Notes under the pieces: generated by a model | Told to the model about the DNA's origin: nothing | Database searches by the model: none | Seen by the model: only the letters and a program-made list of their open reading frames with translations | Made by a program: the position numbers and the translations under genes | From: Acidimicrobiia bacterium | Lineage (GTDB): Bacteria; Actinomycetota; Acidimicrobiia; Spongiisociales; Spongiisociaceae | NCBI GenBank assembly: GCA_009841105.1 | Contig: VXMM01000002.1 | Coordinates: 62,001-126,000 of the forward strand | Length of the DNA stretch: 64,000 nucleotides | Direction of reading: 5' to 3' | Part shown: positions 28,467 through 48,442 of the stretch, one piece after another | How the letters are laid out: the number at the start of each line of letters is the position of its first letter | Position numbering within the stretch: position 1 is the stretch's first letter

Positions 28467-30041
28467 TTAGTCCACTGCAAGCTCTCGTAGCTGCCTCTTC
28501 AGCACCTTGCCCTGTGAATCCCTCGGAAGCGCCCGCAGGTAGTGAATGCGTTTCGGCACCTTGAATGCCGCGAGTTCCCGTCGCGCCGCCGCCATCAACT
28601 CCGCCCCATCCGTGGGCTTGCCGTCCTCTCGCACGATGAACGCGGTGACGGCTTCCGACCACACCGGGTCGGAAGTGCCCACCACTGCCACTTCCCGGAC
28701 GCCCGGAAACCTTGACAGAACACCCTCGACCTCCAGCGAGGAGACGTTCAATCCGCCGGACTTGATGACGTCCTTCTTGCGGTCATAGAAGAAGAGGTTC
28801 ATGTCCTGGTCGATCCGGACGATGTCTCCGGTTCGCAGCCAACCCCCTCTCGTGACCTCAGCAGTCAGGTCAGGCCGGCGGTGGTAGCCCTCCATTACGG
28901 CCGGGGACCGGCAGATCAACTCGCCGACCTCGGTCGGCTGGTCTGCTTCGTCGACCACTCGGACCTCCACCTGTGGCACAGCGCGCCCGATCCAGCGCGG
29001 ATCACGCCCGGGAATCTCAGTTTGGCTGCGGTAGTAACCGATCGCGCCGAGTTGGCTCAACTCTGTTTGCCCCCAGTACGTCGCCCAGCTCAGTCTCGGG
29101 ACACGGGATGACATCGCGTCGGTTACGCGTACAGGGATTACACCCCCATAGGTGTGGGCTTGCCGAAGGGATGAGATGTCGGCTCGGTCGAAGTCTCCGT
29201 ACTCGGTCAGCCGGACATAGAAGGTCGGCGTTTGCGACATGTTGGTGATCCGCTCCGACCCGATCAGTTCCACGCAGTGCGCTGCCTGCGTACTCGCGGA
29301 GAGCACGATGGTGGCGCCCACCGAGATCAGGTTGGTGACGGTGCCAACACCGGCCATCGTGTGCATCGGGGCCAGAAGCAGGAACCGATCATCAGGCTCG
29401 ACATAGCGCTCTCCGGTCCACGCTGGAGACGTCGCTATCAAGAAGTTCCGATGGGGTATACGAACGCCCTTCGGCTCGGTTTCCGTTCCTGATGTGTAGA
29501 TGATCATTGCGAGATCGTGCTCGCTGACGCGCCAATCGTCCGCGAGCGGGTCCTCTTCCTCCAGCATGGCCGCCAGTTCGCTCCCGGGAGTCATGCTGTC
29601 ACTCGCCGTCCTCGTGGCGATGACCGACTCGACAGAGCGGGCGACCATCTGCATCAATCGGTTTTCCGCGACGATCAAGCGCGGTCGAGCGCTCTCAAGC
29701 TGTCGCGCCGTCTCGAACTCGGTCAGATTCGGGTTGAGGGTTGTGAAGACAGCGCCGATCTTGAGAGCGGCGTAGTAGGTCACGATGTGGTCGAGTCCGT
29801 TGCCGGCCATCATCGCGACCACGTCTCGAGTCCCGATGCCCTGCCGCCGGAGCGCGCGACCCATCCGGTTGGCTAGAACGTCCAACTGGCCATAGGTGAG
29901 GTTGAGGCGCCGCTGATCACCCGTATGGACGACGACCGCCGGGGTGTCTCTGTCGCGAAGAGCCCTGCGTTCCAGGACATCACCGAGCGTTGCGCGTCTC
30001 AGGCGACTGGCGAAGTAATCGGCAGGCGGGCCGTCCGACAT
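28467..30041 (-). CDS. AMP-forming acyl-CoA ligase (ligase 1)
   Basis: About 524-residue ANL-superfamily ligase. The P-loop is YTSGTETEPKGV, the adenine motif ATYWGQTELSQLG, the hinge Asp is in GGWLRTGDIVRID, DRKKDVIKSGG follows, and the C-terminal catalytic Lys is in DSQGKVLKRQL. It may start at ATG 30041 or at GTG 30053, which overlaps the stop of the B12-binding gene as GTGA. It lies last in the minus-strand unit with the unusual mutase, so it probably loads the mutase substrate or a pathway acid onto CoA. Substrate unknown. Confidence 0.92.
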   Translation of the reverse strand: MSDGPPADYFASRLRRATLGDVLERRALRDRDTPAVVVHTGDQRRLNLTYGQLDVLANRMGRALRRQGIGTRDVVAMMAGNGLDHIVTYYAALKIGAVFTTLNPNLTEFETARQLESARPRLIVAENRLMQMVARSVESVIATRTASDSMTPGSELAAMLEEEDPLADDWRVSEHDLAMIIYTSGTETEPKGVRIPHRNFLIATSPAWTGERYVEPDDRFLLLAPMHTMAGVGTVTNLISVGATIVLSASTQAAHCVELIGSERITNMSQTPTFYVRLTEYGDFDRADISSLRQAHTYGGVIPVRVTDAMSSRVPRLSWATYWGQTELSQLGAIGYYRSQTEIPGRDPRWIGRAVPQVEVRVVDEADQPTEVGELICRSPAVMEGYHRRPDLTAEVTRGGWLRTGDIVRIDQDMNLFFYDRKKDVIKSGGLNVSSLEVEGVLSRFPGVREVAVVGTSDPVWSEAVTAFIVREDGKPTDGAELMAAARRELAAFKVPKRIHYLRALPRDSQGKVLKRQLRELAVD

Positions 30042-30049
30042 CCGGGCGG

Positions 30050-30436
30050 TCACCCGACCCTGCCCGCAAGCCGGGTCGCCGCATCGACGATCTCGGCCAG
30101 CGGGCTTCCAGGGGGATGAACGGAGACCCCGCGGGAGACGAGACCGTCGATCGCTTGTGGCGGAATGGTTCCTCCCACCAGGACCGGGATGTCCGCCAGC
30201 CCGGCATCGTCCAGCGTGTCGAGGATCCGATGCACCACTTCGATCCTTCCTCCAACGTTCAGACCGATGATCTGTACGTCCTCGTCGCCGGCCATCTGCG
30301 CGATATCGCTGGCTCGAAGCATTCCCCCGAGCACCACATCGAAACCGGCGTCCCTCAATGCTCGGGCGACGACCATGACTCCTCGCCAATGCCCATCGAG
30401 GCTCGTCTTTGCGATCAAGATCCTGGTGTGCTTCAT
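30050..30436 (-). CDS. B12-binding small subunit of an acyl-CoA mutase
   Basis: 128-residue stand-alone cobalamin-binding domain. The motif SLDGHWRGV contains D-x-H-x-x-G with the cobalt-coordinating His, GLNVGGRIEVV and VLVGGTIPP are the nucleotide-tail segments. Length and form match the separate small subunits of isobutyryl-CoA and 2-hydroxyisobutyryl-CoA mutases. It begins five bases after the stop of the large-subunit gene at 30442 and is the only B12-binding subunit in the window, although two large subunits exist. Confidence 0.92.
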   Translation of the reverse strand: MKHTRILIAKTSLDGHWRGVMVVARALRDAGFDVVLGGMLRASDIAQMAGDEDVQIIGLNVGGRIEVVHRILDTLDDAGLADIPVLVGGTIPPQAIDGLVSRGVSVHPPGSPLAEIVDAATRLAGRVG

Positions 30437-30441
30437 ATCGC

Positions 30442-32088
30442 TCAGAACCGCATCGGAACTTCCCAGACGCCGAAAGCGCTCCGGAATACGTCCCCTATCT
30501 CTCCGATGGTTGCATCGGCTTGCACCGCCTCCATGACCCTGGGGATGACGTTCTCGGTTGTCCGGCATGCCGCTTCGAGATCCCGGAGTCTCCGGGTCGC
30601 CTCCCGCCCGTGTCGCTCCCGTCGCAACGAGGTGAGGCGTCGCATGGCCCTCTCCCAGGTCTCCTCACCAGAGCGCCCCTCGAAGCCTTGTATCGGCATC
30701 AGTTCTTCGGGGGAGCGATGGACGTTGGTGCCGACGATGCGCTTGTCGCCGTTCTCGATTGCAGCCACTTCCTCCATCTGGCCGCGAGCGGCCTGGTCGA
30801 GGAGCCAGCCACTGTCGATCGCCGAGAGAAAACCCCCCTCCTTCTCGATCTCGCTCATAAACGCAAGCGCCTTACGTTCGAGTTCTTGGCCGAGGTGCTC
30901 GATGTAGTAGGAACCCCCGAGCGGATCGGCTACCGCGGTGATGTTCGTCTCCTCCTGGAGGATCTGCTGGATCCGGATCGACATCAGGTGCGCATGGTCA
31001 GAGGGGATGGACATGGCCTCGTCATAGCCCGATACCCCGAGCGATTGGGTGCCGCCCAGCGCGGCCGCCAGAGCCATCACCGTCCCTCTGACGATGTTGT
31101 TGAGTGGTTCCTGGTAGGCCATGTTGCTGCCGGCCGTGACCACATGGATGCGGAGGCGGAGAGACCGTTCGTCCGTCACGCCGTACCGATTGGTCAGCAG
31201 GTCATGCCACATCTTCCGCGCCGTTCTCAGCTTCGCCGCATCCTCGAAGAGATCCATGGAGGTGCGGAAGTTCACGCCGCCGATCATCCGGGCAAAGTTG
31301 TCATAGTTGCTGTCCACTCGATCAGCAACCGCCTCCAGGTATTCGATTGCATTGGCGAAGACGGCTCCGAGTTCCTGCCAGGCGTTGAGCCCCGAGTCCG
31401 CTCCGTTGTATCCGGCGATCGAGACCGGCACCCAATGAGGCATCCGTTCCATACACCAGTCGATGATGTCCAGGTTGAGCCGCATCGCAGCACCTGGGGG
31501 TATCTGTTCTTTGGGCGGGCATCCGATGTACGTGAGGAAGAAGTCGCTCTGGCCGGTGCCTCGCAACTTCTCGAGCGGAATCCCACGACGGCTGGCTGCG
31601 GACCAGTAGCACGCCAGCGTGTACGGAGCGCTCTGCGGGACCCCTCCGCCCGGCTTGACGTAGATGGATTCGAGCGGGATTCCATCCATGATGGTCTCGT
31701 AGTCCCGGAGCCCGACCGTGACCGTGCCCGTCAAGCCGACGTCCTCTCGACGCTCGACGATGTCCGGATGGTCGACGTCATAGAGGTGGTCGTCCGTCAT
31801 CCGATCGTGCTTGACGATGACGCCCGTCTCCCCGGCGTCTAGGAGGAACCGGATTCGCTCGTTCATGTCGGACGGGTTGCCGAATCCGCTCAGCTGGAAG
31901 ATCCGCCAATCTTTGGCGCGGTACATCTCGGGGTACGCGCCCCGCAGAAAGGGCGCCGCGCCGGGCAGGGACCCGGCAGCGAGGCGCTGCCCGTCAGCAA
32001 CATGATGCGAGTGATAGACCGGTTCCAGCTCGACCCCGGACGCCGATACCCACATCCGATCTCGCTCGTTCTCCTGTTGGCTTCCCAC
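30442..32088 (-). CDS. Divergent B12-dependent acyl-CoA mutase large subunit (mutase 1)
   Basis: 548-residue TIM-barrel subunit of the methylmalonyl-CoA mutase family, recognisable by RGAYPEMYRAKDWRIFQ, the CoA-tunnel and radical-site region YNGADSGLNAWQELG, SGYDEAMSIPSD and ADPLGGSYYIE. Substrate-contact residues differ from known mutases: L66 replaces the Tyr of methylmalonyl-CoA mutase, C190 replaces the carboxylate-binding Arg, N228 replaces the catalytic His in the GYH motif, and K93 stands at the Asp of 2-hydroxyisobutyryl-CoA mutase. It is paired with the small subunit five bases downstream. Substrate unknown; methylmalonyl-CoA is unlikely. Confidence 0.9.
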   Translation of the reverse strand: MGSQQENERDRMWVSASGVELEPVYHSHHVADGQRLAAGSLPGAAPFLRGAYPEMYRAKDWRIFQLSGFGNPSDMNERIRFLLDAGETGVIVKHDRMTDDHLYDVDHPDIVERREDVGLTGTVTVGLRDYETIMDGIPLESIYVKPGGGVPQSAPYTLACYWSAASRRGIPLEKLRGTGQSDFFLTYIGCPPKEQIPPGAAMRLNLDIIDWCMERMPHWVPVSIAGYNGADSGLNAWQELGAVFANAIEYLEAVADRVDSNYDNFARMIGGVNFRTSMDLFEDAAKLRTARKMWHDLLTNRYGVTDERSLRLRIHVVTAGSNMAYQEPLNNIVRGTVMALAAALGGTQSLGVSGYDEAMSIPSDHAHLMSIRIQQILQEETNITAVADPLGGSYYIEHLGQELERKALAFMSEIEKEGGFLSAIDSGWLLDQAARGQMEEVAAIENGDKRIVGTNVHRSPEELMPIQGFEGRSGEETWERAMRRLTSLRRERHGREATRRLRDLEAACRTTENVIPRVMEAVQADATIGEIGDVFRSAFGVWEVPMRF

Positions 32089-32125: not shown

Positions 32126-33247
32126 TCAACCCGGCGTAGGATCCGTCAGCCACTCGTGCGGAGATGCCACGAACCGCTCGACCATCCTCGTCAATACACC
32201 GGCGGCCCGATGCATCGACTCGTATGCGTCTTCTGAACCGGCGGCGTCATGCAGGTCGCGCGAGTGCCATGTTGCAGGTGACCAACCGACCTCGGTGACG
32301 CACACCGTCGGAATCGCCTGGCTGATGTCACCGAGATCGCTGGAGCCTGAAATGTCGTAGGTGGTGCCGTTGGGAACTCCCAGAACATCCCAGGCGAGTC
32401 GCGCGAGCCCCTCATGCATCAGATAGGGGCGGGCTTTACTCAGAAGGCTCACGGTGACCGCTGTAGCGGTGGCATGGGCCGATCCCTCGGCAATACGCTG
32501 CACGCTCTCGATGAGCCCTTGGAGGAGATCGTCCTCCGGAGCTCGAACGTTCACCCTGAGGCTCGCCGTGTCCGGCAGGACATTGTGGCTCCCGGACACG
32601 GACTCCACCGTTGCGTGGATCCGGCAGCCGTCACGTTGATACTGGCGTTCCATCGCCAGAGCATGCATTGCGAGAGTCGCTGCATCGAGAGCGCTCCGGC
32701 CGTCCCACGGTCGGCTGGCCGCGTGTGACGCCAGTCCTTGAAAGGACAGTTCGAACAGGGCGGCGCCGTTCAGCGTCCCGAAGACGGCGACAACGTCGGA
32801 CGGGTGATAGGTGAATGCAGCGTCGACGCCGTCGAAGGCGCCCGCCTCGAGCATGGGCGCCTTGCCGGCGAAGAGTTCCTCGGCCGGAGTGCCGATCACC
32901 CTCAAGGTGCCCGGCATATCAGAACGGTCGGCCAGTTCCAGCGCCGCTTCCATGACCCCGCCGCAGATCAGATTGTGTCCACAACCGTGTCCGACTTCGG
33001 GTAGAGCGTCGTACTCGACTACAAGCCCGACCGTCGGACCGTCCCCACCGAGGGGCTTTTCGGCGACGAAGGAAGTATCGAGCGAAGCTATGCCGCGCTG
33101 GACGCCGAATCCACTTTCACTCAATAGGCGTACGCAGCGCTCTGATGCATCGAACTCGGCGAGCCCCGTCTCGGGGTTGGCATGGAGGTGACGAGCCAGC
33201 TGCTCGCTTCGTTCGGCTGCGGTCGAGCGTTTTTCCATCTCACGCAT
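32126..33247 (-). CDS. M20-family amidohydrolase/peptidase
   Basis: 373 residues of the M20D aminoacylase-type group. GLVVEYDALPEVGHGCGHNL holds metal ligands, GTPAEE has the catalytic Glu pair, and SFQGLASHAASRPWDGRSALDA marks the dimerisation/lid domain. ATG at 33247 or 33238 could start it. These enzymes hydrolyse N-acyl amino acids, aminobenzoyl-glutamate or indole-acid conjugates. Position 37 bases upstream of mutase 1 suggests that it releases an acid from an amide conjugate before CoA activation; that link is inferred. Confidence 0.88.
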   Translation of the reverse strand: MREMEKRSTAAERSEQLARHLHANPETGLAEFDASERCVRLLSESGFGVQRGIASLDTSFVAEKPLGGDGPTVGLVVEYDALPEVGHGCGHNLICGGVMEAALELADRSDMPGTLRVIGTPAEELFAGKAPMLEAGAFDGVDAAFTYHPSDVVAVFGTLNGAALFELSFQGLASHAASRPWDGRSALDAATLAMHALAMERQYQRDGCRIHATVESVSGSHNVLPDTASLRVNVRAPEDDLLQGLIESVQRIAEGSAHATATAVTVSLLSKARPYLMHEGLARLAWDVLGVPNGTTYDISGSSDLGDISQAIPTVCVTEVGWSPATWHSRDLHDAAGSEDAYESMHRAAGVLTRMVERFVASPHEWLTDPTPG

Positions 33248-33319: not shown

Positions 33320-34021
33320 TCACGTCATCACCCATCCGCCGTTCATATCGATGGTTGCGCCGGTGATGAATCCAGCGTCGTCTCCGGCGAGATAAGCGAC
33401 GAGCGCCGCAAATTCCTCGGGTGTCGAGAACCGACCAACCGGCAACTGATCAATGATCCGCTGGCGCCCTGCTTCGTCGAGGAAAGCGTTGAGTTCGGTG
33501 TCGATGGCTGCGGGCGCCACGGCGTTGCAGGTGACGCCCCTCCCCGAGTACGCCGTCGCGAACGACTTCGTGAGCGCGATGACACCCGCCTTCGCTGCGG
33601 CGTAGGGCGCGGACGAAAACCCCCCGGTCCGGGCGACGACGCTGGAGAAGTTGATGATACGACCCCATCCCTCAACTGCCATGGATGGTGCGCTTCCTTG
33701 ACACAGAAGAAACACGGAACGAAGGTTCACGCTCACTGCTCGATCAAAGTCCTCGACGGTTGTGGACTCGATTGTCCGCGGCTCGAGCAAGCCGTGAGCG
33801 GTCACGAGCACGTCGATCCTCCCGGCCTCGGTGATTACCCGGTCGCATTCCGATGGATCGCTCAGGTCGGCGCTAATCGTGGTCGTGGCTCCGTTCGAAC
33901 GCTGCTCGCGGATATCGACGCCTACCACCTCGTAGCCCCGGTCGGCCAGTGACAGAGAGGTCGCGTGTCCTACGCCTCGCGCGGCGCCGGTGACGAGGGC
34001 GCGCCGAACATTGCTCCTCAT
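33320..34021 (-). CDS. Short-chain dehydrogenase/reductase
   Basis: 233-residue classical SDR. TGAARGVG is the cofactor-binding motif, VTAHG replaces NNAG, the catalytic residues are Ser in NFSSVVA, Tyr and Lys in PYAAAKAG, and the C-terminus INMNGG-like GATIDMNGGW is typical. D-I-R after the second strand favours NAD+. It is the first minus-strand gene facing the acyl-CoA dehydrogenase operon. A 3-hydroxyacyl or alcohol oxidation step in the CoA pathway is likely but unproved. Confidence 0.92.
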   Translation of the reverse strand: MRSNVRRALVTGAARGVGHATSLSLADRGYEVVGVDIREQRSNGATTTISADLSDPSECDRVITEAGRIDVLVTAHGLLEPRTIESTTVEDFDRAVSVNLRSVFLLCQGSAPSMAVEGWGRIINFSSVVARTGGFSSAPYAAAKAGVIALTKSFATAYSGRGVTCNAVAPAAIDTELNAFLDEAGRQRIIDQLPVGRFSTPEEFAALVAYLAGDDAGFITGATIDMNGGWVMT

Positions 34022-36254: not shown

Positions 36255-37060
36255 ACGACAACGCACCGTTGCTGGTGGAAGACCGTGGGCCGGCGAGGTG
36301 GATCTGGTTCAACCGACCTCGCGTGCACAACGCCCAGAACACCGAAATGCTCGAGGCCCTGGACGATGCGCTCAAGCTGGCCGGCCAGGATGCCGGTGTA
36401 CGTGTCGTCGTGCTCGCAGGCAAGGGGAGATCGTTCTGTTCAGGGCATGATCTCAAAGAGATTGTGGCGCATGCCGACTACGCCCGAGCGGTCGAGTCGG
36501 TAGAGGGCCGGATGCAATGGGAGCAACGACTGTTCGTAGAACCGGTGAACCGCTTTCGCGAGCTTCCCGTGCCGACGGTGGTGCTCGCCCATGGCCACTG
36601 CCTCGCGGCCGGCCTGATGTTCGTCTCCGTCGCGGATTTCGTGTACGCGACGCCGGACGCCGTCTTCGGTTCGCCCATAATCCCGGCCATGAGCATCAAT
36701 GACGCCGAGGTTCCTGCATTCGCCTGGGCCGTGGGTTCGCGGCGCGCCAAGCAGACCCTCTGGCTCGACCAGCGAATGGACGCTCAGACCGCCCGCGAGG
36801 TGGGTCTGGTGTCCGAAGTAGTGCCAGCCGATGAGATAGAGGAGTGGATCGAGTCGGTCGTCCAATCCCTGGCAGCCATTCCGGCCGAGACGCTCATGCT
36901 GTCGAAACTCTCGCTACGGCAGATGGACGATCAGGCCGGCTACCTAGCGATCAGTGGCTTCCACTTCCTATCCCACTCGCTGAGCCACCACACGACGGGT
37001 GCGCTGGCCGCACTCGCGGAACGGCAGCAGCGCCTTTCCGGTTCGGATGAGTCGGATTGA
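36251..37060 (+). CDS. Crotonase-superfamily protein lacking both hydratase glutamates
   Basis: 269-residue enoyl-CoA hydratase/isomerase-fold protein. The oxyanion-hole segments SFCSGHDLKE and HGHCLAAG are present. However, at the two catalytic Glu positions of enoyl-CoA hydratase (in GGGCELA and FGxPE segments) it has M123 and I143 (GLMFVSVAD and FGSPII). A simple hydration is therefore unlikely; isomerisation, C-C hydrolysis, decarboxylation or dehalogenation, all known in crotonases, are possible. It overlaps the dehydrogenase gene by ATGA and is followed by an unknown gene by TTGA overlap. Confidence 0.88.
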   Translation: MNDNAPLLVEDRGPARWIWFNRPRVHNAQNTEMLEALDDALKLAGQDAGVRVVVLAGKGRSFCSGHDLKEIVAHADYARAVESVEGRMQWEQRLFVEPVNRFRELPVPTVVLAHGHCLAAGLMFVSVADFVYATPDAVFGSPIIPAMSINDAEVPAFAWAVGSRRAKQTLWLDQRMDAQTAREVGLVSEVVPADEIEEWIESVVQSLAAIPAETLMLSKLSLRQMDDQAGYLAISGFHFLSHSLSHHTTGALAALAERQQRLSGSDESD

Positions 37061-37788
37061 CCGATCCGCTACGCCTCGAGGGAGGAATCATCGACCTGCT
37101 TCCGAACATATACATGGCACGGATGGACGTCGCCCCGGAGGGGTTGCCGGCATTCATGAACTGGTACGAACACAAGCATGCACCCGACCTGATCTCAGTC
37201 GGGTTCCACAGCGCTCACGGATACCAATGCCGGGCCGGTTCGCCGTTCATCCTCAATGTGTACGAGATTGACAGTTCGGAGATCTTCTACTCGGAGGCTT
37301 ACAACACGAAGCGGACTCCGGCATCGGACCCGGAACGCCCGGCGATCCTCGCCGGCGTCACGAATCGATCGAATACCGTCTACCGTCAGATCCACACGCT
37401 CGGTGTCGAGATGCCTGACCGGCCGTGGTCGGAAGGTTGCCGGTCCGGCGCGGTGGACGCCCCGGTCGTGACTTCGGTCCGCTTCGACCTGGAACGGGGC
37501 TCGAGCCGGGATGCCCTGGTGGGCTGGTTCCGCGATGTCGAGTTCCCCGAGACTGCGTGCCGGTCCGGATTCCTGGCTGCTCGACTCCTGAACCGGACCG
37601 AGCGCCAGCACCACGCCAACCCGTGGCTGTCCTCATGGGCGACGCTCATCGAATGGGAGGACCAGGCCGCCGCGGAATCCGCCGGAGGCGAGGCGGACAC
37701 GCTGGAGCGGCTCGCCGGGTCCGGCCTTGGAGCCAACGGCGCCGCTTTCCACCTGGCTGTCCGCGTCTTGTCCGCAACCACCGGTTGA
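37057..37788 (+). CDS. Unknown protein, probable tandem dimeric alpha/beta barrel
   Basis: 243 residues starting at TTG 37057 inside the crotonase stop. Two weakly similar halves are visible: NIYMARMDVAPEGLPAFMNWY in the first and VVTSVRFDLERGSSRDALVGWF in the second, each with the strand-helix pattern of EthD/ferredoxin-like barrels. His-rich EHKHAPDL could bind a ligand. No family was recognised with confidence. Tight coupling to the crotonase and dehydrogenases says it belongs to the CoA pathway. Confidence 0.7.
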   Translation: MTDPLRLEGGIIDLLPNIYMARMDVAPEGLPAFMNWYEHKHAPDLISVGFHSAHGYQCRAGSPFILNVYEIDSSEIFYSEAYNTKRTPASDPERPAILAGVTNRSNTVYRQIHTLGVEMPDRPWSEGCRSGAVDAPVVTSVRFDLERGSSRDALVGWFRDVEFPETACRSGFLAARLLNRTERQHHANPWLSSWATLIEWEDQAAAESAGGEADTLERLAGSGLGANGAAFHLAVRVLSATTG

Positions 37789-37823: not shown

Positions 37824-38864
37824 CTAGACCGCGAAGTGGGGCATTACCTCGGAGGCGACCATCTGCTGACCCTCAAGTGCGGTGTCGAGTCCGGGGCCGT
37901 GGAAATATCGGAGGCGGACGATGATCTCTTCCGGATCGAGGATCTCTCTCCACTCCTCCAGCATCTCGATCCACGTGGCCGGAGAGCCGACCAAGGCTCT
38001 ATTGCGGAGCACGTGGTCGAGGGTGATGTCGTCCGCTGAACCCACATCCTCGATCCAGGGCTCCCACTTCGGCTTGTAGTAAGCGTTGCCGCGCCGGTAG
38101 TAGATCCGATGGTATTCCAGGATGTACTGGCCGAGGAGATCTCGGGCAGCTTCGTCGGTGGTGGCAATCGCCGCTTCACGGAGGATGGCGATCCGGGGAG
38201 TCTTTCCCAGCTTCGCGCACTCCTCCCTGTACAGCCCGGCGAGGTGTGAGAGGTGCGCTGTCGAGCTGATCGGCCCGGTCTCCCAACCATCGCCAAGCGC
38301 AGCGATCTTGACACCCACATCACTCCAGGCACCGACCCAAACCTCTGGAACGAGATCACCCATCGCCGGGTCGCGAGGAGGAACCGTCCCCCGCCACGGA
38401 TCATCCTCGGCGAAGCGGAAGGGCTCACCGGAGCGGAATGCGTTGATGGCCTCCAGGCCTCTGCGCATCCTCTGGGGCCGCTCCGACAGGTCCACTCCAT
38501 AGACGTCGAAGTCGTCTTGCAGGTAGCCGGCGCCGACGGTCAGCCGGTACCGGCCCGGATACATGGCGTTGATCATCGCCGCATCCTGGATCACGGTCAC
38601 CGGGTGATAGAGGGGGAGGAGCACCACACCGCTTGCGAACTTGAGGCGCTTCGTTTCCGCCAGCCCGAACTGAGCGATGAGTTGCGCGTTGTTCACGACT
38701 CCGTGTGTCCCGGAGTGAGGGCCGTGCCCGCGCCGCTCACCCTTGTACGCATACTCGAATCCGAGCGCGTCGGCCGATTCACACTCCGCTAGGTAGCCGT
38801 CAAGGTCCCACCGGCGCTCTCCATCCCGTACACCGACAACGGTCGTGGAGATAGAGAACTTCAT
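37824..38864 (-). CDS. LLM-class flavin/F420-dependent oxidoreductase
   Basis: 346-residue luciferase-like protein. KFASGVVLLPLYHPVTVIQDAAMI, RYRLTVGAGYLQDDFDVYGVDL and the C-terminal RNRALVGSPATWIEMLEEW are typical of the bacterial luciferase-like family. It overlaps the aspartoacylase-like gene upstream by ATGA and converges with the plus-strand dehydrogenase unit. In this group, members oxidise alcohols, hydroxylate or cleave C-C/C-N bonds; which applies here is not visible. Confidence 0.88.
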   Translation of the reverse strand: MKFSISTTVVGVRDGERRWDLDGYLAECESADALGFEYAYKGERRGHGPHSGTHGVVNNAQLIAQFGLAETKRLKFASGVVLLPLYHPVTVIQDAAMINAMYPGRYRLTVGAGYLQDDFDVYGVDLSERPQRMRRGLEAINAFRSGEPFRFAEDDPWRGTVPPRDPAMGDLVPEVWVGAWSDVGVKIAALGDGWETGPISSTAHLSHLAGLYREECAKLGKTPRIAILREAAIATTDEAARDLLGQYILEYHRIYYRRGNAYYKPKWEPWIEDVGSADDITLDHVLRNRALVGSPATWIEMLEEWREILDPEEIIVRLRYFHGPGLDTALEGQQMVASEVMPHFAV

Positions 38865-39796
38865 CGAGGAGCTCCCGGCACCTCGACCTCGTCATGGGGA
38901 AACCCGACCATGAAGGCGAAGTCGCCGGGGTTGACGATCTTCGGCGTGGTCACCGCCATTAGTAGGATGCCTGGCCGGTCGATCTCGAACTCCTCCCAGA
39001 CCTCCCCCGTGGCGGGGCTGGTGATCCATCCGAGACGGCCCTCCGGGATCTCACTACCGACCGCATCGGTGGACACGCCGCTCTGGAGGATGCCGCTCGT
39101 GGAAGCGAGGAACAGCGGCCGCTCGCGGATGACGGGCAATCGCGGCGGGCCGGTGGGACTACCGCCGAGGTGGCCCCGGTAACGCAGCGTGTTCAGGCTG
39201 CCTTCGACGCCGGCGGCCGGGGAGGGCAGACTCGCCCCCCCGAACTCGGGAAGGAAGCCTGACAGGCCGCGCTCGACGGCTGTCGCGCTGACCTGGCCTC
39301 CCGGCCGGAAGTCGACGACGACCGGCAGGTAGCCGAACGAGGATGTGAGCTCGAGGTCTCCGGCATCATAGGAATACCAAAGTGCCATCTCGGGCGTCCC
39401 CGAGTGCAGGTCGATGATGCACTCCGCATGCTCGTAGACGACGGTCGCGACGGCGTGAGCAACCTGGTCGGTGAGAAAGCCGCTCGGCGTCCCTGGAAAG
39501 CGCCGGTTCAGGTACAGATGGTCGGGCGAGACTCGGGTGCCCACCTGGAGCGCAGGGAGGTTCACGGCTGCAGCCAGGAGAACCGTGCCCTTCAGTTGCT
39601 CCTGAATCAGGTGTCGCTCGAGATCGTGCACCGCGATCGACCCGAGCGGCTTGTCACCGTACAGCCCCGAGACTATGGCCGTCGCCGGTCCCGGGGTGGC
39701 GCCGCGGAGTTCGACGAATCGGACCTGCCACGGTGCGCCGTCGATCCGGCGTCCGACGGGCACCCTCCACTCTCGACGTGTCGTGGACGACTTCAT
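38861..39796 (-). CDS. Aspartoacylase/succinylglutamate-desuccinylase-like protein, altered metal site
   Basis: 311-residue M14-type fold. DLHSG (H131), the LNRRFPG substrate loop and the late Glu in PEFGG (E184) are conserved, but the first metal motif, normally G-x-H-G-x-E, reads SGLYGDKPLG with Y46 and K49 in place of His and Glu. Two of the residues that bind zinc are therefore missing. It may bind another metal, act as a lyase or binding protein, or be inactive. It overlaps the luciferase-like gene by four bases. Confidence 0.75.
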   Translation of the reverse strand: MKSSTTRREWRVPVGRRIDGAPWQVRFVELRGATPGPATAIVSGLYGDKPLGSIAVHDLERHLIQEQLKGTVLLAAAVNLPALQVGTRVSPDHLYLNRRFPGTPSGFLTDQVAHAVATVVYEHAECIIDLHSGTPEMALWYSYDAGDLELTSSFGYLPVVVDFRPGGQVSATAVERGLSGFLPEFGGASLPSPAAGVEGSLNTLRYRGHLGGSPTGPPRLPVIRERPLFLASTSGILQSGVSTDAVGSEIPEGRLGWITSPATGEVWEEFEIDRPGILLMAVTTPKIVNPGDFAFMVGFPHDEVEVPGAPR

Positions 39797-40806: not shown

Positions 40807-42348
40807 TCAGTTCACCTGGCGGGATTGTTGATCCCAGTGCCGGCTTCTGAGCGCCGATTTGAGAATCTTGCCGGTCGAGCCCTTCGCCAACTCCTTCACG
40901 ATCCACACGTCTCGCGGCTTCTTGTAGCCGGCCAGCCGGTTGGCCACCTCGGCAGTGACCTCCTCGGGCCTGACGGTGTGCCCGGGCCTCTCAACCACAT
41001 AGGCAACCACGCGTTCCCCCCATCGCTCGTCAGGCACTCCGATCACGGCCGACTCGAGAACGCCGGCGTGGTTGGCGATCGCCGCCTCGACTTCCGCCGG
41101 GTATACGTTCAGCCCGCCGCTGATGACCATGTCCTTCTGCCGGTCGATGATTGTCAGGTAACCCTCGTCATCAAGGTACCCGATGTCCCCGGTTCGGTAG
41201 AACCCGTCTACATAAGCCTCTCGAGTCGACTCTTCGTCCTCCCAGTATCCGACTGTCACGCTCTCCGCTCGGACCTGGATCTCGCCCACCCGCGAGTCGA
41301 GAGCACCCGTCGGGACGAGCCGGAGCTCGACCGATCGCGTCGGCCTGCCCGCCGACGCGAGCCGTTGATCGGACGCATCGACGTGCTCGGAACGGGACAG
41401 CACGGTGAGCGGATGGGGCGCCTCCGCCGTCCCGTACACCTGCACGAATACCGGGCCGAAGACATCGATGGCTCGCCTGATCGTGTTCGGAGCGATCGGG
41501 GAGCCTCCGTACGACACGTGTCGTAGGTTGAGCGTCGGCCGCTTCCGTGCCTCGGCTTCCTCGATGAGCATCGTGATCATCGTGGGCACTACGAACGAGG
41601 CGGTCGCCCGCCGGCGCAGGGCCTCATCCAGGAAGCGGCCGGGGTCGAAGGAGGGGACCACGATGTTGCGCGCTCCGCCGAGGGCATACGCAATCACCTT
41701 CGAGCCGCTGCCGTGCGACAGCGGCCCGGCGTGCAGCATGGCGTCTGCAGGCGTGACGTCTATCAACTCATCGAGCAACATGTTCCAGGTTGCGGCCATC
41801 CGACTCCGAAAGGTGGCTGTTGCGCCCTTCGGGTGGCCGGTCGTGCCCGAGGTATAGAGGATCGCGCTCGGGTCATCTGGTCGCCACGCGCGGTCGGGAG
41901 GGCGGTTGGCGGCTCCGAGAACCTCTTCGTAGTCGTGGGTTCCACCGCCGCCGATGGACACGACGGTATCGAGTGCTTCAGCCTCGTCGACCAAGCTCAG
42001 GGCAGAGTCGGCCGAAGTAGATTCGGTGATCAGTATGGAGGCCCCCGAGTCCCTCACCACATGCAGGCGTTCGGACTGGCTCAGGCGTGGGTTGATCGGA
42101 ACCTTGGGATGGCCCGCCTTCAACAGGGCAATGTCGGCCTCGATGTACTCCATACGGTTGGAAGCGAGGATGGCGACCGGTCGCCTCCCGGGATTCAACT
42201 CGAGAAGAGCCGACGCGAGGCGGTCGGACCGGTTGGCAAGCTGAGCGAATGTCTCCGATCGGTCCCCGTCCTCTACGGCGACCCGTGACGCGTGCTGCCG
42301 GAATGACCGGTCCAGCAGGGCGCCTAGGTCAGCCGTTGTGAATGTCAC
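40807..42348 (-). CDS. AMP-forming acyl-CoA ligase (ligase 2)
   Basis: 513-residue ANL ligase. P-loop YTSGTTGHPKGAT, VQVYGTAEAPHPLT adenine motif, FYRTGDIGYLD hinge Asp, DRQKDMVISGGLNVYPAEVE and catalytic Lys in GSTGKILK are all in place. GTG at 42348, with GGGGGA six bases upstream, overlaps mutase 2 by 20 bases, so the two are coupled. The presence of a second ligase next to the second mutase mirrors the ligase 1/mutase 1 arrangement. Confidence 0.94.
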   Translation of the reverse strand: MTFTTADLGALLDRSFRQHASRVAVEDGDRSETFAQLANRSDRLASALLELNPGRRPVAILASNRMEYIEADIALLKAGHPKVPINPRLSQSERLHVVRDSGASILITESTSADSALSLVDEAEALDTVVSIGGGGTHDYEEVLGAANRPPDRAWRPDDPSAILYTSGTTGHPKGATATFRSRMAATWNMLLDELIDVTPADAMLHAGPLSHGSGSKVIAYALGGARNIVVPSFDPGRFLDEALRRRATASFVVPTMITMLIEEAEARKRPTLNLRHVSYGGSPIAPNTIRRAIDVFGPVFVQVYGTAEAPHPLTVLSRSEHVDASDQRLASAGRPTRSVELRLVPTGALDSRVGEIQVRAESVTVGYWEDEESTREAYVDGFYRTGDIGYLDDEGYLTIIDRQKDMVISGGLNVYPAEVEAAIANHAGVLESAVIGVPDERWGERVVAYVVERPGHTVRPEEVTAEVANRLAGYKKPRDVWIVKELAKGSTGKILKSALRSRHWDQQSRQVN

Positions 42349-43960
42349 CGTAGGTCCCCCACTCGTCCCGCAGTACCGAGCTGATCTCGCCGACGGTCGC
42401 GTAGGACTTGACTGCTCGGAGGATCGACTGCATGGTGTTGCAGCCTGCGGCCGCCGCTTCCCTGACCTCGGCGAGCGCGGCATCCACGGCCGGGTTGTTG
42501 CGATCGGCTCGAAGTCTCCGCAGTTTCTCGACCTGCTCGTCCTCACCGTCATTTGAGATCGCAAAGGCGGTCGTGGGCGCAGGAGCGCCATCGGCAAAAC
42601 GGTTCACGCCGATACGTGGCCGCGTGCCATCGTCGATGCCGCGCTGGAGCGCATAGGCCTCCCGCTCGATCTCCGCCCCGATCCAGCCACTCTCGAGGGC
42701 CGCGAGCGCTCCGCCCCGATCCGCGATCCGGCTCATGTACTCGAGGATCCTGCCGTGGAGTTGGTCGGTCAGCCATTCGATGAAATAGGACCCGCCCAGG
42801 GGATCGGCGGTACGCGGGACGCCCGTCTCCAAGGCAATGATCTGCTGGGCGCGGAGGGACACGTTGGCTGCCTCCGCCGAAGGCAGGCCGATCGCCTCGT
42901 CGTACGAGGATGTAGCCAGGGTCTGGACACCACCCAGTACCGCGGCCAGCGCCTCGAACGCGACCCGTGAGATGTTGTTCAGATGCTCCTGCGCCGTTAG
43001 AGATCCGCCGAGCGTGTATACGAAGATGTTGAGGGCGTGGCTCCTCGGGTCTGCAGCTCCGTAGCGGTCGCGCATCAGATGAGCCCACATCCGGCGGGTC
43101 GCCCGATACTTCGCCACCTCCTCGAAGATGTCGAGGTCGGCAGAGAGGAACATGAAGAGATTGGGAGCGAAGTCGTCCACTGAGAGCCCTCTTCTGAGGG
43201 CGGCTTCGATGTACTCGATGCCGTTGGCAGCGGCGATGGCCACCTCCTGGATGGCATTGGCGCCCGAATCTCGAATGTGATAGCCGCAGAACTCGATCGG
43301 TTCCCAGTGGGGGAGATACCTCGCGCAGTACTCGACGAGATCAATCGAGAATTCCAGGCCGCGCCGCGGTGGGAAGATTTGCGTGCCACGTGCCACGTAC
43401 TCCTTCAACACGTCGTTCTGGAACATCACACGGAAGCTGTCGGGTGTGCCTCCCAGCCTCTCCGATGCAGCGATGATGAGTGAGGCTGCGATCGGGCCGA
43501 TCGAGTTCGCGGTCGTGCGGATCTGGTGGAGTTGATGGAGCGGTATCCCGTCGAGCAACTCTTCCATGTCGGACAGGGAGTCAATCGGTACGCCGACTTT
43601 TCCTACTTCGCCCGTGGCCAACGGGTCGTCGGAGTCGAGGCCATTCTGGGTTGGCAGGTCGAGAGCGATGGAGAAGCCCTTCTGACCCTGGGCTAGGAGC
43701 GACTTGATCCGTGCGTTCGTCTCCCGGGGGGTCGCGTAGCCGGAGTACTGGCCCATGATCCAGAGCCCTTCGCGGTACATATCCTGCCGGATCCCTCTGG
43801 TGAACGGGAACCGGCCGGGCGCACCGACGGCGTCCTTGGGCTCGATCTCCTCGAGCGCCTCCGGCCCATACCAAGACGCAAGTGGTATGCCAGACTGGGT
43901 GACGGTCGGGAATCCTGGCGGTGGGTGGGGAGACTTTTCCTCTGGGCTTTCGTTCCTCAC
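42329..43960 (-). CDS. Methylmalonyl-CoA-mutase-type large subunit (mutase 2)
   Basis: 543 residues from GTG 43960. Unlike mutase 1, it keeps the methylmalonyl-CoA mutase triad: Y72 in GQYSGY, R191 in YVARGTQIF and H228 in CGYHIRDSG, with A99 at the position that is Asp in 2-hydroxyisobutyryl-CoA mutase. ADPLGGSYFIE and VNRFAD are conserved C-terminal marks. No B12-binding domain is attached and none is adjacent. The start is uncertain because upstream codons would overlap the divergent MeaB gene; only 23 bases separate the two starts. Confidence 0.9.
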   Translation of the reverse strand: MRNESPEEKSPHPPPGFPTVTQSGIPLASWYGPEALEEIEPKDAVGAPGRFPFTRGIRQDMYREGLWIMGQYSGYATPRETNARIKSLLAQGQKGFSIALDLPTQNGLDSDDPLATGEVGKVGVPIDSLSDMEELLDGIPLHQLHQIRTTANSIGPIAASLIIAASERLGGTPDSFRVMFQNDVLKEYVARGTQIFPPRRGLEFSIDLVEYCARYLPHWEPIEFCGYHIRDSGANAIQEVAIAAANGIEYIEAALRRGLSVDDFAPNLFMFLSADLDIFEEVAKYRATRRMWAHLMRDRYGAADPRSHALNIFVYTLGGSLTAQEHLNNISRVAFEALAAVLGGVQTLATSSYDEAIGLPSAEAANVSLRAQQIIALETGVPRTADPLGGSYFIEWLTDQLHGRILEYMSRIADRGGALAALESGWIGAEIEREAYALQRGIDDGTRPRIGVNRFADGAPAPTTAFAISNDGEDEQVEKLRRLRADRNNPAVDAALAEVREAAAAGCNTMQSILRAVKSYATVGEISSVLRDEWGTYGDIHNG

Positions 43961-43983
43961 TTCTTGGAAGCATAATCCGCGGC

Positions 43984-44958
43984 ATGGATGCCGGTCAGCC
44001 AGCCTCGGACCCCGGAACGGCAGCCCGGGCAACCCTATTCGGAGGGGATCGACGAGCGCTCGCGAGGGCGATCAGCCGCTGCGAACGTGAGCCTGATTCG
44101 GTGGGTCAGCTGCTTGAGCGCGCCCACGCCCGCGCCACCGGCGCGCTCCGAATCGGGATCACCGGCCCGCCGGGATCAGGTAAGAGCACGCTCACCGACA
44201 GGTTGCTCGGCGCCTACCGGCGGGACGGACGCAGGGTGGCCGTTGTCGCCACAGACCCGTCCAGCCCCTACTCCGGTGGTTCTCTCCTGGGGGATCGTGT
44301 CCGGATGGGATCTCACGCGGGCGACCCGGGTGTGTTCATCCGTTCGATGTCCACGCGTGGCCGGCTCGGAGGGTTGAACGCGTCGGCCGAGATGGTGGCG
44401 GTCCTTCTCGACGCGGAGGGCTACCGGCCGATCATCTTCGAGACGGTCGGCGTCGGCCAATCCGAGGTAGAGGTGATCGACCGTACCGACACCGTGGTCG
44501 TTGTCGTCGCCCCGGGCTTCGGCGATGACATCCAGGCGGAGAAGGCAGGCCTCATGGAAGTCGGTGATGTCTTCGTCGTGAACAAGGCTGACAACCCCGG
44601 AGCGACCAGAGCAGCGAGAACGCTGGAGAACATGGTTTCGATGGGCCCTAGCCACGGCTGGCGACCACCGGTGCTGCTCACCGTGGCCAAGACCGGTGAG
44701 GGAGTCGATGAGGTGGTCGACGCCATCCGGTTGCACAACGAGAGCATGGCCGAGTCGGGCGCGCTGCGATCCAGGCGTCGGGCGCGGGCCGAGGCGGAGA
44801 TATCGCGAATGATCGAGAGGCTGGCGGCACAGGTTACCGAGCCTGCGGTCGCCCGGTACTCGGAGGCTGTGATGGCGGGCGCCACCGATCCGTGGAGTGC
44901 CGCCGAGGAGATCTTCAACTCGTTCCGGACCGGAGGACACCGACCGCGAGGACAGTGA
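43984..44958 (+). CDS. meaB: MeaB/ArgK-type mutase-chaperone GTPase
   Basis: 324-residue G3E-family GTPase. GPPGSGKST is Walker A, VVATDPSSPYSGGSLLGDR the Mg2+/switch segment, FETVGVGQSEVEV switch III/Walker B region, and VNKAD the guanine motif. It loads and protects adenosylcobalamin on acyl-CoA mutases. It is divergent from mutase 2 with 23 bases between starts, which ties it to the mutases of this island. Confidence 0.95.
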   Translation: MDAGQPASDPGTAARATLFGGDRRALARAISRCEREPDSVGQLLERAHARATGALRIGITGPPGSGKSTLTDRLLGAYRRDGRRVAVVATDPSSPYSGGSLLGDRVRMGSHAGDPGVFIRSMSTRGRLGGLNASAEMVAVLLDAEGYRPIIFETVGVGQSEVEVIDRTDTVVVVVAPGFGDDIQAEKAGLMEVGDVFVVNKADNPGATRAARTLENMVSMGPSHGWRPPVLLTVAKTGEGVDEVVDAIRLHNESMAESGALRSRRRARAEAEISRMIERLAAQVTEPAVARYSEAVMAGATDPWSAAEEIFNSFRTGGHRPRGQ

Positions 44959-45036: not shown

Positions 45037-45735
45037 TCAGGCCAGGTACGCGTCGATTATCTCTTGGGAGTTCCGTAGCGTCGCCGACGGACCCTCGATT
45101 GAGATCGAGCCTCTGTGGAGCAGGTACGTGTGGTCGGAGATGGCCAGTGCGAGCTCGGCGTTCTGTTCGATGAATAGGATCGACAGTCCTTCTGCGTGCA
45201 GCCGGGTTATCGAGGCGTAGACCTCGTCCACGATGGCCGGAGCGAGTCCTATCGTCGGACTGTCTATGAGCAGCAGTTCCGGGTCTGTGATCAGGACCCG
45301 ACCGATAGCGACCATCTGCTGCTCGCCCCCGCTAAGAGTCCCCGCATATTGCCTGCGCCGCTCCTTGAGGCGTGGGAACAGCTCGAAGATGCGGGCGAGC
45401 ATCTCGGGGACGTTGGAACGTCTCGCGGCGGAACCCAGTGCCAGGTTCTCCTCCACGGTGAGCGGGGCAACGACAGAGGTCGGTCGTTCCATCAGGAAGG
45501 CGAGTCCGTGGTGGGCGAGTTGGTGAGTCGGCCATCCGGTGATGTCACGATCGCCGAACGTCACGGTCCCGCTGTCCGGACTATGCATGCCCGCGATCGT
45601 CTTCAGGGTCGTGGACTTGCCCGACCCGTTCGAGCCGATGAGGGATACCATCGCCCCCCGGTCGACTTGTAGGTCAACGTTGTTGACCGCCCGAATGTTG
45701 CCGTAGCTTGACGAGAGATTCGATACGCGCAGCAT
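45037..45735 (-). CDS. livF: Branched-chain-type ABC transporter ATPase LivF, altered Walker B
   Basis: 232-residue ATPase of LivF class. Walker A GSNGSGKST (34-42) and signature LSGGEQQ are intact, but Walker B reads LLLIDSPTIGLAP, with S159 replacing the catalytic Glu. The AFLMERPTSVVA segment also replaces the usual PEGRRVF motif. The site may be a degenerate half of an asymmetric ATPase pair with LivG fused at 45674. Its start overlaps that gene by 62 bases. Role: import of a carboxylate or amino-acid-like compound. Confidence 0.9.
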   Translation of the reverse strand: MLRVSNLSSSYGNIRAVNNVDLQVDRGAMVSLIGSNGSGKSTTLKTIAGMHSPDSGTVTFGDRDITGWPTHQLAHHGLAFLMERPTSVVAPLTVEENLALGSAARRSNVPEMLARIFELFPRLKERRRQYAGTLSGGEQQMVAIGRVLITDPELLLIDSPTIGLAPAIVDEVYASITRLHAEGLSILFIEQNAELALAISDHTYLLHRGSISIEGPSATLRNSQEIIDAYLA

Positions 45736-47461
45736 CAGCTTTCCTTCCGAAGTAAGCCTCGATCACCGTGGGGTCGGACAGGCAGTCGGCCGGCGCGCCC
45801 TGTGCCAGCAGCCTGCCGAAGTCCATCACGATCGCCTGTTCGCAGTAGTTGAGCACGAGCTCGAGGTTGTGCTCGATGACGACCACTGTGAGGCCTCGGT
45901 CCGTCAGGCTGAGCATCAGCTCGCCGATCGCCTGCGAGCCGAGCTTGTGCATGCCCGCTGTCGGCTCATCCAGCAGCAGGACGGATGGCTCCATCGCCAG
46001 AGCTCGAGCGATCTCGACCCTACGCTGGTTGGCGTAGGACAGGGTGGCGGCATACTGGTCGGGTTGGCCTATCACGCCAACCAGATCCATCAGTGCTCTC
46101 GCCCGCTCGGCTAGGTCCGCCCGTTCGCGCCGGTCGCGAGGTGTCATGAACACGGGATCCCAGAAGTTGGTCCTGCGCTCGCGATCGAAGCCGACCATGA
46201 TGTTCTCCACGACCGTCAGATCGTCGAACAGCTGCACGGTCTGGTAGGTACGGGCCACTCCCTCGCGGGCGATGTCGGTCTGTTTCCATCCCGTCATGTC
46301 CTGCCCGAGAATCCGGATCTTCCCGCGATCCGACTCGTCTCCCCCGCTCATGACCGAGAGCAAGGTCGACTTCCCGGCCCCGTTCGGTCCTACGATCCCG
46401 AAGACGGAGCCTTCGGGAACGGTGAAGGTGAGATCGCTGATCGCCACCAGACCGCCGTATGTCTTGCGTATGCCCTCGACGCTCAGAGCAGCCGGCCGAT
46501 CCCGGGTCGGCTCGGCCTCAGGCGCCGTCCGGCCCGTCAGGTTGAGACTCCACAGGTCGGCCTCTCCCTCCTGCTCTCCGCCGGCCGACGGCTCACCATG
46601 GCCGGAGTGGATGTTGGTCGCCTGTTTCTTGAGTTCCCTTCGTACCTTGCGCGTGGGGTCGACCAGGCCGCGCGGGAGGTAGATCATGATCAGGATCAGG
46701 AGCACACCGTTCACGATGGTCTCGCCCTGGGTGAGGAACCGGCGGAGTATCTCGGGAAGGATCGTGAAGACGAACGCTCCGACAATCCCCCCGAACCAGT
46801 GGCGGTTCCCTCCCAGAACCACCGCGGCGAGCATCACGAAGGCGATGTTCACGTAGAACGTGTCGGGCGACAGGAATTGCACGAGACTTGCGTAGACGAC
46901 CCCTGCCAATCCAGCGATCGCGCCACTCAACATCCACAAGGATCGACGTGTGCCGTAAACATCGATTGCAAGCGATGCGGCCACGTCAGGGTGGCTGCGA
47001 ACGGCTTCGGCGGCAAGCCCGAGCCGGGACCTGCTGTGGCGAGCCATGACCCACATCACCGCGCCCAGGGCGGTGAAGAGATGCCACTGCTCGACCATCC
47101 GGGTAATCGGGGCGCCGTCCACGCCGCCGGTGACGGAGTCGAGATTCAGCACGACCACCCGCGCCATCAACACGAGGGCGATCGTTGCCAGCGCCACCCA
47201 ATGGCTCTCGAGCCTCGCCAAGGGAATGCTGACCAGGAGGCCCGACAGAAGCCCGACCACGACTCCCGCAACGAGTACGAGTTCGATAGGGACGTTGTGG
47301 TCCTCCACGAGGGCGAGGCTTACGAATCCCGTGACCGCCGCCATCGGTGTGCCGGCGAGACTCAGGATGCCGCCCCGGAGCGCTGAATAGGTTGCGATGG
47401 CGAAGAGCGCGAACGCGATGGAGAACTCGACCGTGGACGCGTAATGGCCCAGGAACGCCAT
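45674..47461 (-). CDS. Fused LivM permease-LivG ATPase
   Basis: 595 residues in two parts. Residues 1-270 are a LivM-type permease with eight or so hydrophobic segments and the EAA-like loop around GLAAEAVRSHPDVAASLAIDVYGTR. A charged linker (275-325) leads to a LivG ATPase with Walker A GPNGAGKST (358-366), signature LSYANQRR, intact Walker B VLLLDEPTAGM and switch His in VIEHNLE. Such fusions are known in Actinobacteria. It would pair with LivH and LivF. Confidence 0.94.
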   Translation of the reverse strand: MAFLGHYASTVEFSIAFALFAIATYSALRGGILSLAGTPMAAVTGFVSLALVEDHNVPIELVLVAGVVVGLLSGLLVSIPLARLESHWVALATIALVLMARVVVLNLDSVTGGVDGAPITRMVEQWHLFTALGAVMWVMARHSRSRLGLAAEAVRSHPDVAASLAIDVYGTRRSLWMLSGAIAGLAGVVYASLVQFLSPDTFYVNIAFVMLAAVVLGGNRHWFGGIVGAFVFTILPEILRRFLTQGETIVNGVLLILIMIYLPRGLVDPTRKVRRELKKQATNIHSGHGEPSAGGEQEGEADLWSLNLTGRTAPEAEPTRDRPAALSVEGIRKTYGGLVAISDLTFTVPEGSVFGIVGPNGAGKSTLLSVMSGGDESDRGKIRILGQDMTGWKQTDIAREGVARTYQTVQLFDDLTVVENIMVGFDRERRTNFWDPVFMTPRDRRERADLAERARALMDLVGVIGQPDQYAATLSYANQRRVEIARALAMEPSVLLLDEPTAGMHKLGSQAIGELMLSLTDRGLTVVVIEHNLELVLNYCEQAIVMDFGRLLAQGAPADCLSDPTVIEAYFGRKADAARIESLVKLRQHSGGQQR

Positions 47462-48351
47462 CAGGCCCGGAGGCCCACGATGCGGTCGCCCATCAGGCCC
47501 TTGGGTCGAGCCAGGAGGACGACGATAAGCAACCCGAAGGTAATGAAGTCGCGAAACGAGTTACTGATGTACTGGGCCCCGAGGACCTCGGCCAGCCCGA
47601 TGAGGATCCCACCCACGTATGCGCCTCTCAGGTCCCCGAAGCCTCCGATGATCACCGCCGCGAATCCTTTGAGAAGAAGCCCTTCTCCCACCGTGAAGCT
47701 CACGTTGTTGGTGGAAATCGAGCTCAGGATCCCGGCAACCGAGGCAGTCGCGGCGGCGATGAAGGATATGACGATCACCACACGTCGCGGATTCACACCG
47801 GAGATCTTCGCCGAGTCGGGATCCCAGCCGACCGCCCGCATTTGCGCCCCGATGTTCGTCCTCATCATGAACAGGTAGAGGATCAGCAGTAGTAGCAGGG
47901 CGACTGCGAAGGTGATTATCTGATGATACGGGATCACCAGGTCACCGATCCTCACGAAGCCGCGGGGAAGTGCTTCCCGGGGAAAGGTCTTGATCCGGGC
48001 GCCGGTAGCGATGATCGCGAGCTGACCGAGGATGATCCAGAAGCCGATGCTGGTGATGATCGGGCCGAGCAGACCGCCTCCCCGCCGTCGGATCGGCTCG
48101 AATCCCAGTTGATCCACGAGGACGCCTAGCAGGCCACCGCCCGCCATCCCGATGGCGAGCGCGGGTACGAGCGGGACCCCAAGGCTGTCGAACGCGGCGA
48201 GCGCCAGGATCGCTCCCCATGTCGCGTAGGTCCCGTGAGCGACATTGAGTATTCCCATGGTGGCGAAGACCAAGCCGAAGCCCATGGCGAAGATGGCATA
48301 GGAGGAACCTACCGCGAGACCGTTGATCGTCTGTTGCAGGAACAGTGTCAT
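47461..48351 (-). CDS. livH: Branched-chain-type ABC transporter permease LivH
   Basis: 296-residue LivH permease. INGLAVGSSYAIFAMGFGLVFATMGILNVAHGTYA is the family N-terminus, split here only by length, and the EAA-like loop is IGAQMRAVGWDPDSAKISGVNPRRV. Stop and next start overlap by one base. It forms the channel with the LivM half of the fused protein. Located after a strong hairpin that may lower its level relative to the binding protein. Confidence 0.94.
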   Translation of the reverse strand: MTLFLQQTINGLAVGSSYAIFAMGFGLVFATMGILNVAHGTYATWGAILALAAFDSLGVPLVPALAIGMAGGGLLGVLVDQLGFEPIRRRGGGLLGPIITSIGFWIILGQLAIIATGARIKTFPREALPRGFVRIGDLVIPYHQIITFAVALLLLLILYLFMMRTNIGAQMRAVGWDPDSAKISGVNPRRVVIVISFIAAATASVAGILSSISTNNVSFTVGEGLLLKGFAAVIIGGFGDLRGAYVGGILIGLAEVLGAQYISNSFRDFITFGLLIVVLLARPKGLMGDRIVGLRA

Positions 48352-48379
48352 CTCGTGGAAACACTACTGACTCAAGCAA

Positions 48380-48416: not shown

Positions 48417-48442
48417 CCAGGGTCTGGTGGCCCGCGTCGCTC

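Follow-up and report, generated by a model that had tools for sequence, protein, structure and literature searches.

2-Hydroxyisobutyryl-CoA mutase (HCM, HcmAB) has separate large and small subunits and an associated acyl-CoA ligase. Ethylmalonyl-CoA mutase and pivalyl-CoA mutase are enzymes of the His type. To our knowledge, every characterized acyl-CoA mutase keeps the active-site His; point mutants of methylmalonyl-CoA mutase (MCM) at this residue are badly impaired, and PDB entry 1e1c is a solved structure of the MCM H244A mutant. In human MCM, Arg-228, equivalent to position 207 in the P. shermanii literature numbering used here for MCM, forms a salt bridge with a malonyl-CoA analogue and also touches the chaperone MMAA (PMC10356863). 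The benzylmalonyl-CoA/phenylsuccinyl-CoA mutase of indoleacetate degradation, IaaGH, is a two-subunit enzyme whose operon also encodes a CoA ligase, a binding protein and an acyl-CoA dehydrogenase (PMC8360864).

Here we compare with these systems a pair of genes, mutL and mutS, from a 64,000-nucleotide stretch of an Acidimicrobiia genome (assembly GCA_009841105.1, contig VXMM01000002.1, positions 62,001 to 126,000), hereafter the window (Table 1). Alignment, family-wide invariance, fold, operon structure and purifying selection lead us to propose that MutL and MutS probably form an active two-subunit AdoCbl carbon-skeleton mutase acting on the acyl-CoA supplied by the adjacent ligase. MutL is encoded by 548 codons opening with GTG on the minus strand; the plus strand of the same interval holds no open MutL frame, a stop interrupting it. 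MutL belongs to the MM_CoA_mutase superfamily by profile cut-offs and TIM-barrel fold: PF01642 matches its full length with 464.9 bits (cut-off 22.1), and TIGR00641 scores 400.8 bits (cut-off 303.8). Identity to MCM-like proteins is about 36–38%, and the closest PDB entry by sequence is HCM (4r3u, E 2e-87), followed by human and mycobacterial MCM. An AlphaFold (AF2) model built from 15 sequences (the window and related loci) reached pLDDT 75 and pTM 0.77, being poor at residues 1–53 and in part of 362–393; an earlier model from 13 close relatives (pLDDT 43) was discarded. The model adopts the MCM/HCM fold, with Z scores of 38.2 (2xiq, human MCM), 36.2 (4r3u, HCM) and 36.1 (4req) over 460–470 aligned residues at an rmsd of about 3 Å, and its next fold neighbors are non-CoA mutases (glutamate mutase, aminomutases; Z 15–19).

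Table 1. Features of the MutL locus and its surroundings, in window coordinates
Feature	Position	Strand	Basis or remark
MutL, large (substrate-barrel) subunit, B12 acyl-CoA-mutase-like, Asn-type, 548 aa	30442-32088	-	PF01642, TIGR00641, AF2 model, 35-member family
L66 codon CTG, site of MCM Tyr89 (HCM Ile90)	31891-31893	-	Leu in 35/35
K93 codon AAG, site of MCM Ala116 / HCM Asp117	31810-31812	-	Lys or Glu across family
C190 codon TGC, site of MCM Arg207	31519-31521	-	Cys in 35/35
N228 codon AAC, site of MCM His244	31405-31407	-	Asn in 35/35
R275 codon, new invariant Arg, C-terminal end of barrel strand 6 (MCM position 289)	31264-31266	-	35/35
MutS, small B12-binding subunit, 128 aa	30050-30436	-	TIGR00640 101.2 bits; start from homologues and junction
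DGHWRG, B12-binding DxHxxG motif with axial His	30380-30397	-	MutS alignment
GLNVGG, replaces SxL	30248-30265	-	MutS alignment
VGGTIP (GG motif)	30161-30178	-	MutS alignment
AMP-forming acyl-CoA ligase, 528 aa, GTG start	28467-30053	-	PF00501 234.9 bits; junction
M20-family amidohydrolase, 37 nt upstream of MutL	32126-33247	-	TIGR01891 193.8 bits, above cut-off
Short-chain dehydrogenase (SDR)	33320-34021	-	Profile match; orthologue in L042
243-aa protein	37057-37788	+	No Pfam family
Luciferase-like monooxygenase, recurring neighbor	37824-38864	-	Profile match and locus comparison
AstE/aspartoacylase-like deacylase	38861-39796	-	Homologue adjoins MutL in L042, near MutL in L083/L084
Citrate-synthase-like ORF, 250 aa	40023-40775	-	C-terminal half of Pfam model only (151-349)
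Mutase 2	42329-44032	-	Tyr, Arg and His kept
MeaB GTPase chaperone	43921-44958	+	PF03308 295.3 bits
Branched-chain-amino-acid-type ABC transporter genes (LivF, LivMG, LivH, binding protein)	45037-49852	-	Homologous set near MutL in L042
C45-family autoproteolytic acyl hydrolase	59063-60157	-	
Xsc (sulfoacetaldehyde acetyltransferase)	60202-61914	-	862.9 bits, cut-off 676.4

A sequence-only reading of the window had placed L66, C190 and N228 (counted from the GTG) at the sites of the Tyr, the carboxylate-binding Arg and the catalytic His, and K93 at the site of the HCM Asp. In a MAFFT alignment of MCM (5req, 2xij), HCM (4r3u), 35 His-type mutases and 35 MutL-family rows, L66, K93, C190 and N228 fall in the columns of Tyr89, Ala116 (HCM Asp117), Arg207 and His244, and a profile–profile alignment gives identical columns with no gap between T178 and C190; the three replacements stand as proposed, with exact numbering. 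A single-sequence HMMER alignment opens a gap at C190 that would bring P191 opposite Arg207, the Arg being absent either way. A gap artifact at C190 was set aside because the profile alignment and all family members concur and no Arg lies close by; the MutL-family alignment contains no other invariant Arg or His near this site. Leu, Cys and Asn occupy the three sites in all 35 family rows, which include some genes present twice, whereas His is found at 244 in all 35 rows of the His-type comparison set. For K93 the proposed column is right, but the residue is not fixed (25 Lys, 10 Glu), and because part of the family carries Glu it is no fixed catalytic Lys.

These residues match the set of no characterized relative considered here. 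HCM comes closest in several respects, sharing split subunits, an acyl-CoA ligase, the best PDB match, the lack of Arg at 207, a non-Tyr residue at 89 and a charged residue at 116/117; it differs in having Ile90, Asp117, Gln208 and His245 where the MutL family has Leu, Lys or Glu, Cys and Asn, and in its CoA tunnel and small-subunit SxL region, both of which are changed in MutL and MutS. Isobutyryl-CoA mutase (IcmF; 4xc6/5cjt) shares the fold (Z 33) and what would be a non-carboxylate substrate class, but IcmF is fused to its GTPase whereas the window mutase is split, its GTPase and B12 domains being separate, and MutL scores 138.4 bits against a cut-off of 1500 for the NCBIfam IcmF equivalog. 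Ethylmalonyl-CoA and pivalyl-CoA mutases are set apart by their active-site His. IaaGH acts on a dicarboxylic acyl-CoA and is likened to MutL/MutS by its published subunit and operon description.

MCM itself (human MMUT, P. shermanii MutAB) resembles MutL/MutS in fold, in the B12-binding His motif and in the equivalents of Q197, D118, His328 and E370; its B12 domain is fused rather than separate, and its Tyr89, Arg207, His244, R87, S114, S164, N236, Q330, H364 and N366 are all replaced in MutL. That MutL is an ordinary MCM with tolerated substitutions would fit the shared fold and the level of identity, but is very improbable: every family member lacks both the His and the Arg that binds the acid (human Arg-228; PMC10356863), and elsewhere in the genome lie genes for a canonical MCM (C16) and for the small subunit that matches it (C47). 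With the defining residues absent and a canonical enzyme elsewhere in the genome, it is close to certain from sequence that MutL is not an MCM.

The remodeling reaches beyond the triad into both the CoA tunnel and the small subunit, so that the earlier focus on a changed triad was correct but too narrow. More than half of the MCM residues that we take, from the known P. shermanii structures, to contact CoA or line its tunnel are replaced in the MutL family, and the replacements have become fixed: T85R, R87F, S114I, S164G, T166G/A, N236V, S285G, F287N/S, Q330V, H364G and N366S. R283 is variable. Equivalents of T195, Q197, His328 (H315), Gln361 (Q348) and Glu370 are kept. Most strand-end residues of the barrel have been swapped for new invariant ones; R96, D231 and R275 are new family-invariant residues, R62 and F64 are also fixed, and R275 lies within strand 6 (271–276 in the AF2 model), close to the active-site end of the barrel.

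After such losses, CoA binding by MutL cannot be taken for granted. A B12 mutase acting on a free acid or another carrier rather than a CoA thioester, with a refitted tunnel and the ligase acting downstream, would explain the loss of most MCM CoA contacts while the fold and B12 site stay, and has a parallel in the non-CoA mutases that are the next fold neighbors. We nevertheless consider it unlikely: T195, Q197, H315 and Q348 remain, an Arg (R62) is gained at position 85 alongside the loss of R87, a change (T85R) that may offset the tunnel losses, the ligase is translationally coupled, and a sister Asn-type group retains its CoA-binding residues. For the proposed acyl-CoA mutase, we infer an acyl-CoA substrate with the changed tunnel as the chief counter-argument; the loss of SxL in MutS, the different ligase of one clade and the lack of an adjoining ligase in L077 and L078 also count against it.

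The listed MutS frame reaches 30568, and its start was taken as the ATG at 30436, where the homologues begin, 5 nt past the MutL stop. MutS carries the DxHxxG motif in the form DGHWRG, with Trp following the His where the canonical form is DGHDRG, and the GG motif is retained in the aligned family members. In place of SxL, the aligned family members have G[LI][NH][VI]GG, two residues shorter.

Family members outside the window were sought at several depths. Scanning 84,980 species genomes with patterns that reach fairly close relatives only gave 12 related loci, all metagenome-assembled and, where titled with a class or family, assigned to Acidimicrobiia. By profile search, MutL-family members occur in 18 of 395 Acidimicrobiia-class genomes, spanning several orders, and one further member (G630) was found among the other actinomycete genomes sampled; family members score 807–1116 bits and the next mutases at most 440. 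No family member was found on plasmids among 426 matches (best identity 36%), and the family profile found no relatives in viral contigs; for phyla beyond Actinomycetota, coverage came only from plasmids, viral contigs and the scan for close relatives. We found no literature on the family. Between the window MutL and its 93%-identical orthologues, dN/dS is about 0.11. Family-wide invariance, family depth and this ratio together indicate that the substitutions are old, fixed and under selection.

The His-to-Asn change is not specific to this protein: Asn at 244 is shared by two more sets of PF01642 large subunits, defined here as groups 2 and 3. Group 2 (L092–L103) was found in 16 of the 296 Actinomycetota genomes sampled; its large subunits retain the CoA-binding residues, its small subunit also reads DGHWRG, and its gene neighbors are an SDR, an acyl-CoA dehydrogenase, a thiolase/OB-protein and an acetoacetyl-CoA ligase. 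Group 3 comprises two IMG/VR contigs (L126 and L127) with an Arg still near position 207; one small subunit (L130) has DVHNRG and a normal SxL region. Both groups resemble the MutL family in Asn at 244, a one-residue insertion after 207 and Leu/Phe at 89, but unlike it they keep R87, S114, N236, Q330 and the length of the small-subunit SxL region. In an unrooted tree of 47 rows, a single branch (99/97) has every Asn protein on the same side, and the MutL family forms a deep clade of its own (100/100) whose stem measures about 1.0 change per site. The His-to-Asn change appears older than the MutL family and common to a whole PF01642 branch, a single origin not being proven by an unrooted tree with a small taxon sample. 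Natural enzymes with Asn at 244 since an ancient split offer a direct test of the role of that His.

Turning to the operon, the ligase start was placed at the GTG at 30053 (the listed frame reaches 30389), where it overlaps the MutS stop by 4 nt, indicating translational coupling. The SDR is probably the first gene of the MutL transcript, and MeaB is likely a shared chaperone. The order MutL–MutS–ligase is conserved across orders (window, L038, L042, L044, L045, L079–L081 and L083); in L082 and L084, where the small subunit was not called, the ligase likewise comes after MutL, and in L077 and L078 no adjacent ligase was seen. In L080 and L081 the gene immediately after the ligase is a MeaB homologue. 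Luciferase-like monooxygenases, AstE-type deacylases, the 243-aa protein (in L038, L042 and L083) and Liv-type transporters recur near MutL. A nitroreductase-family gene lies upstream of MutL in the Glu93-type loci L044, L079, L080 and L081, abutting it except in L080; its identification as BluB was set aside, with no NCBIfam match at E 1e-20.

A distinct arrangement, MutL–MutS–Xsc–class III aminotransferase–ligase–luciferase-like monooxygenase–OB protein–thiolase, is conserved in L040, L041, L043, L046 and L047. In L040 it lies at about 10–19.4 kb, with an Xsc of 791.9 bits (equivalog cut-off 676.4), and the ligase of this clade differs from the window type. A B12 mutase operon containing Xsc is unusual. 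The window has its own Xsc, 28 kb from the mutase and next to the C45 hydrolase; this pair suggests sulfonate, perhaps taurine-amide, catabolism in the genome, and a link to the mutase across 28 kb is possible.

Within the acyl-CoA mutase reading, these neighbors point to a narrower version in which the substrate would be an acyl chain freed from an amide, perhaps one conjugated to taurine or another sulfonate. Among the recurring neighbors are amide hydrolases (M20, AstE-type, amidase) and the luciferase-like monooxygenases, Xsc lies within the L040-clade operon, and the window holds Xsc and the C45 hydrolase; the Glu93-type loci L044 and L079–L082, however, showed no such genes adjoining MutL, Xsc is found in one clade's operon only, and the argument is one of neighborhood alone. 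This narrower version is doubtful, and an amide-released chain is best treated as a weak lead.

For the acyl-CoA mutase as such, the following mechanism can be envisaged. The adjacent ligase would make the acyl-CoA, and MeaB, judged by its family, would load AdoCbl into MutL/MutS via the axial His of DGHWRG. The adenosyl radical would then abstract hydrogen from the acyl chain, a 1,2 shift of the thioester group would follow, and the product would pass to β-oxidation-type enzymes. With Arg207 gone, the usual site would no longer grip a malonyl/succinyl-type carboxylate of the substrate. N228 could hydrogen-bond the thioester carbonyl but would be unable to serve as an acid like His244, and a changed radical-stabilizing site, as put forward in the sequence-only reading, is plausible with Asn at this position. 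The group that distinguishes the substrate is probably bound by the polar residue at position 93 (Lys/Glu) together with the invariant R275, and the Lys/Glu split at 93 suggests that the family has two or more substrates. The new substrate specificity proposed earlier is well supported by the deep family, purifying selection and lack of fit to the MCM, ICM and HCM residue sets, even though the His-to-Asn change is not specific, K93 is not fixed and the remodeling is wider. As the same replacements run throughout an old family, MutL and its relatives probably handle a compound that no characterized mutase of this type handles. More tentatively, the Asn-type branch may work without an acid/base His, and the MutL family, with its refitted tunnel and a new Arg/Lys-or-Glu pair, may catalyze a 1,2-rearrangement of a substrate class, possibly not a normal CoA ester, beyond those of characterized B12 mutases. 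The family hints at a new catabolic reaction in Acidimicrobiia and adds templates for engineered mutases.

Finally, mutase 2, named as the partner of MutL in the sequence-only reading, keeps Tyr, Arg and His as that reading stated. It has a MeaB gene alongside and no small subunit in its neighborhood; only two stand-alone small subunits exceed the family cut-off in the genome, C47 (SxL form, elsewhere) and MutS, and mutase 2 may borrow either. The partnership is nonetheless doubtful, and an obligate pair was set aside because a relative (G007) has an orthologue of mutase 2 and no Asn-type gene was found there. The same evidence bears on MutL being a paralogue comparable to the MCM beta chain, either catalytically dead or regulatory/structural, for instance as a partner of mutase 2. 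The lost catalytic residues and the scarcity of small subunits would suit such a role, but MutL comes with a B12 subunit of its own bearing DxHxxG, which sets it apart from an inactive beta chain, most of its strand-end residues are replaced by new invariant ones rather than by drift, and mutase 2 occurs without MutL in G007; we regard this as quite unlikely and retain the active two-subunit mutase. Mutase 2 is itself another unusual mutase, forming a long branch with R87G, T85I, T195M, N236E, H328F and Q330Y; an in-frame TGA flagged in its orthologues is just the terminal stop. The citrate-synthase-like ORF lies beside a ligase and mutase 2.
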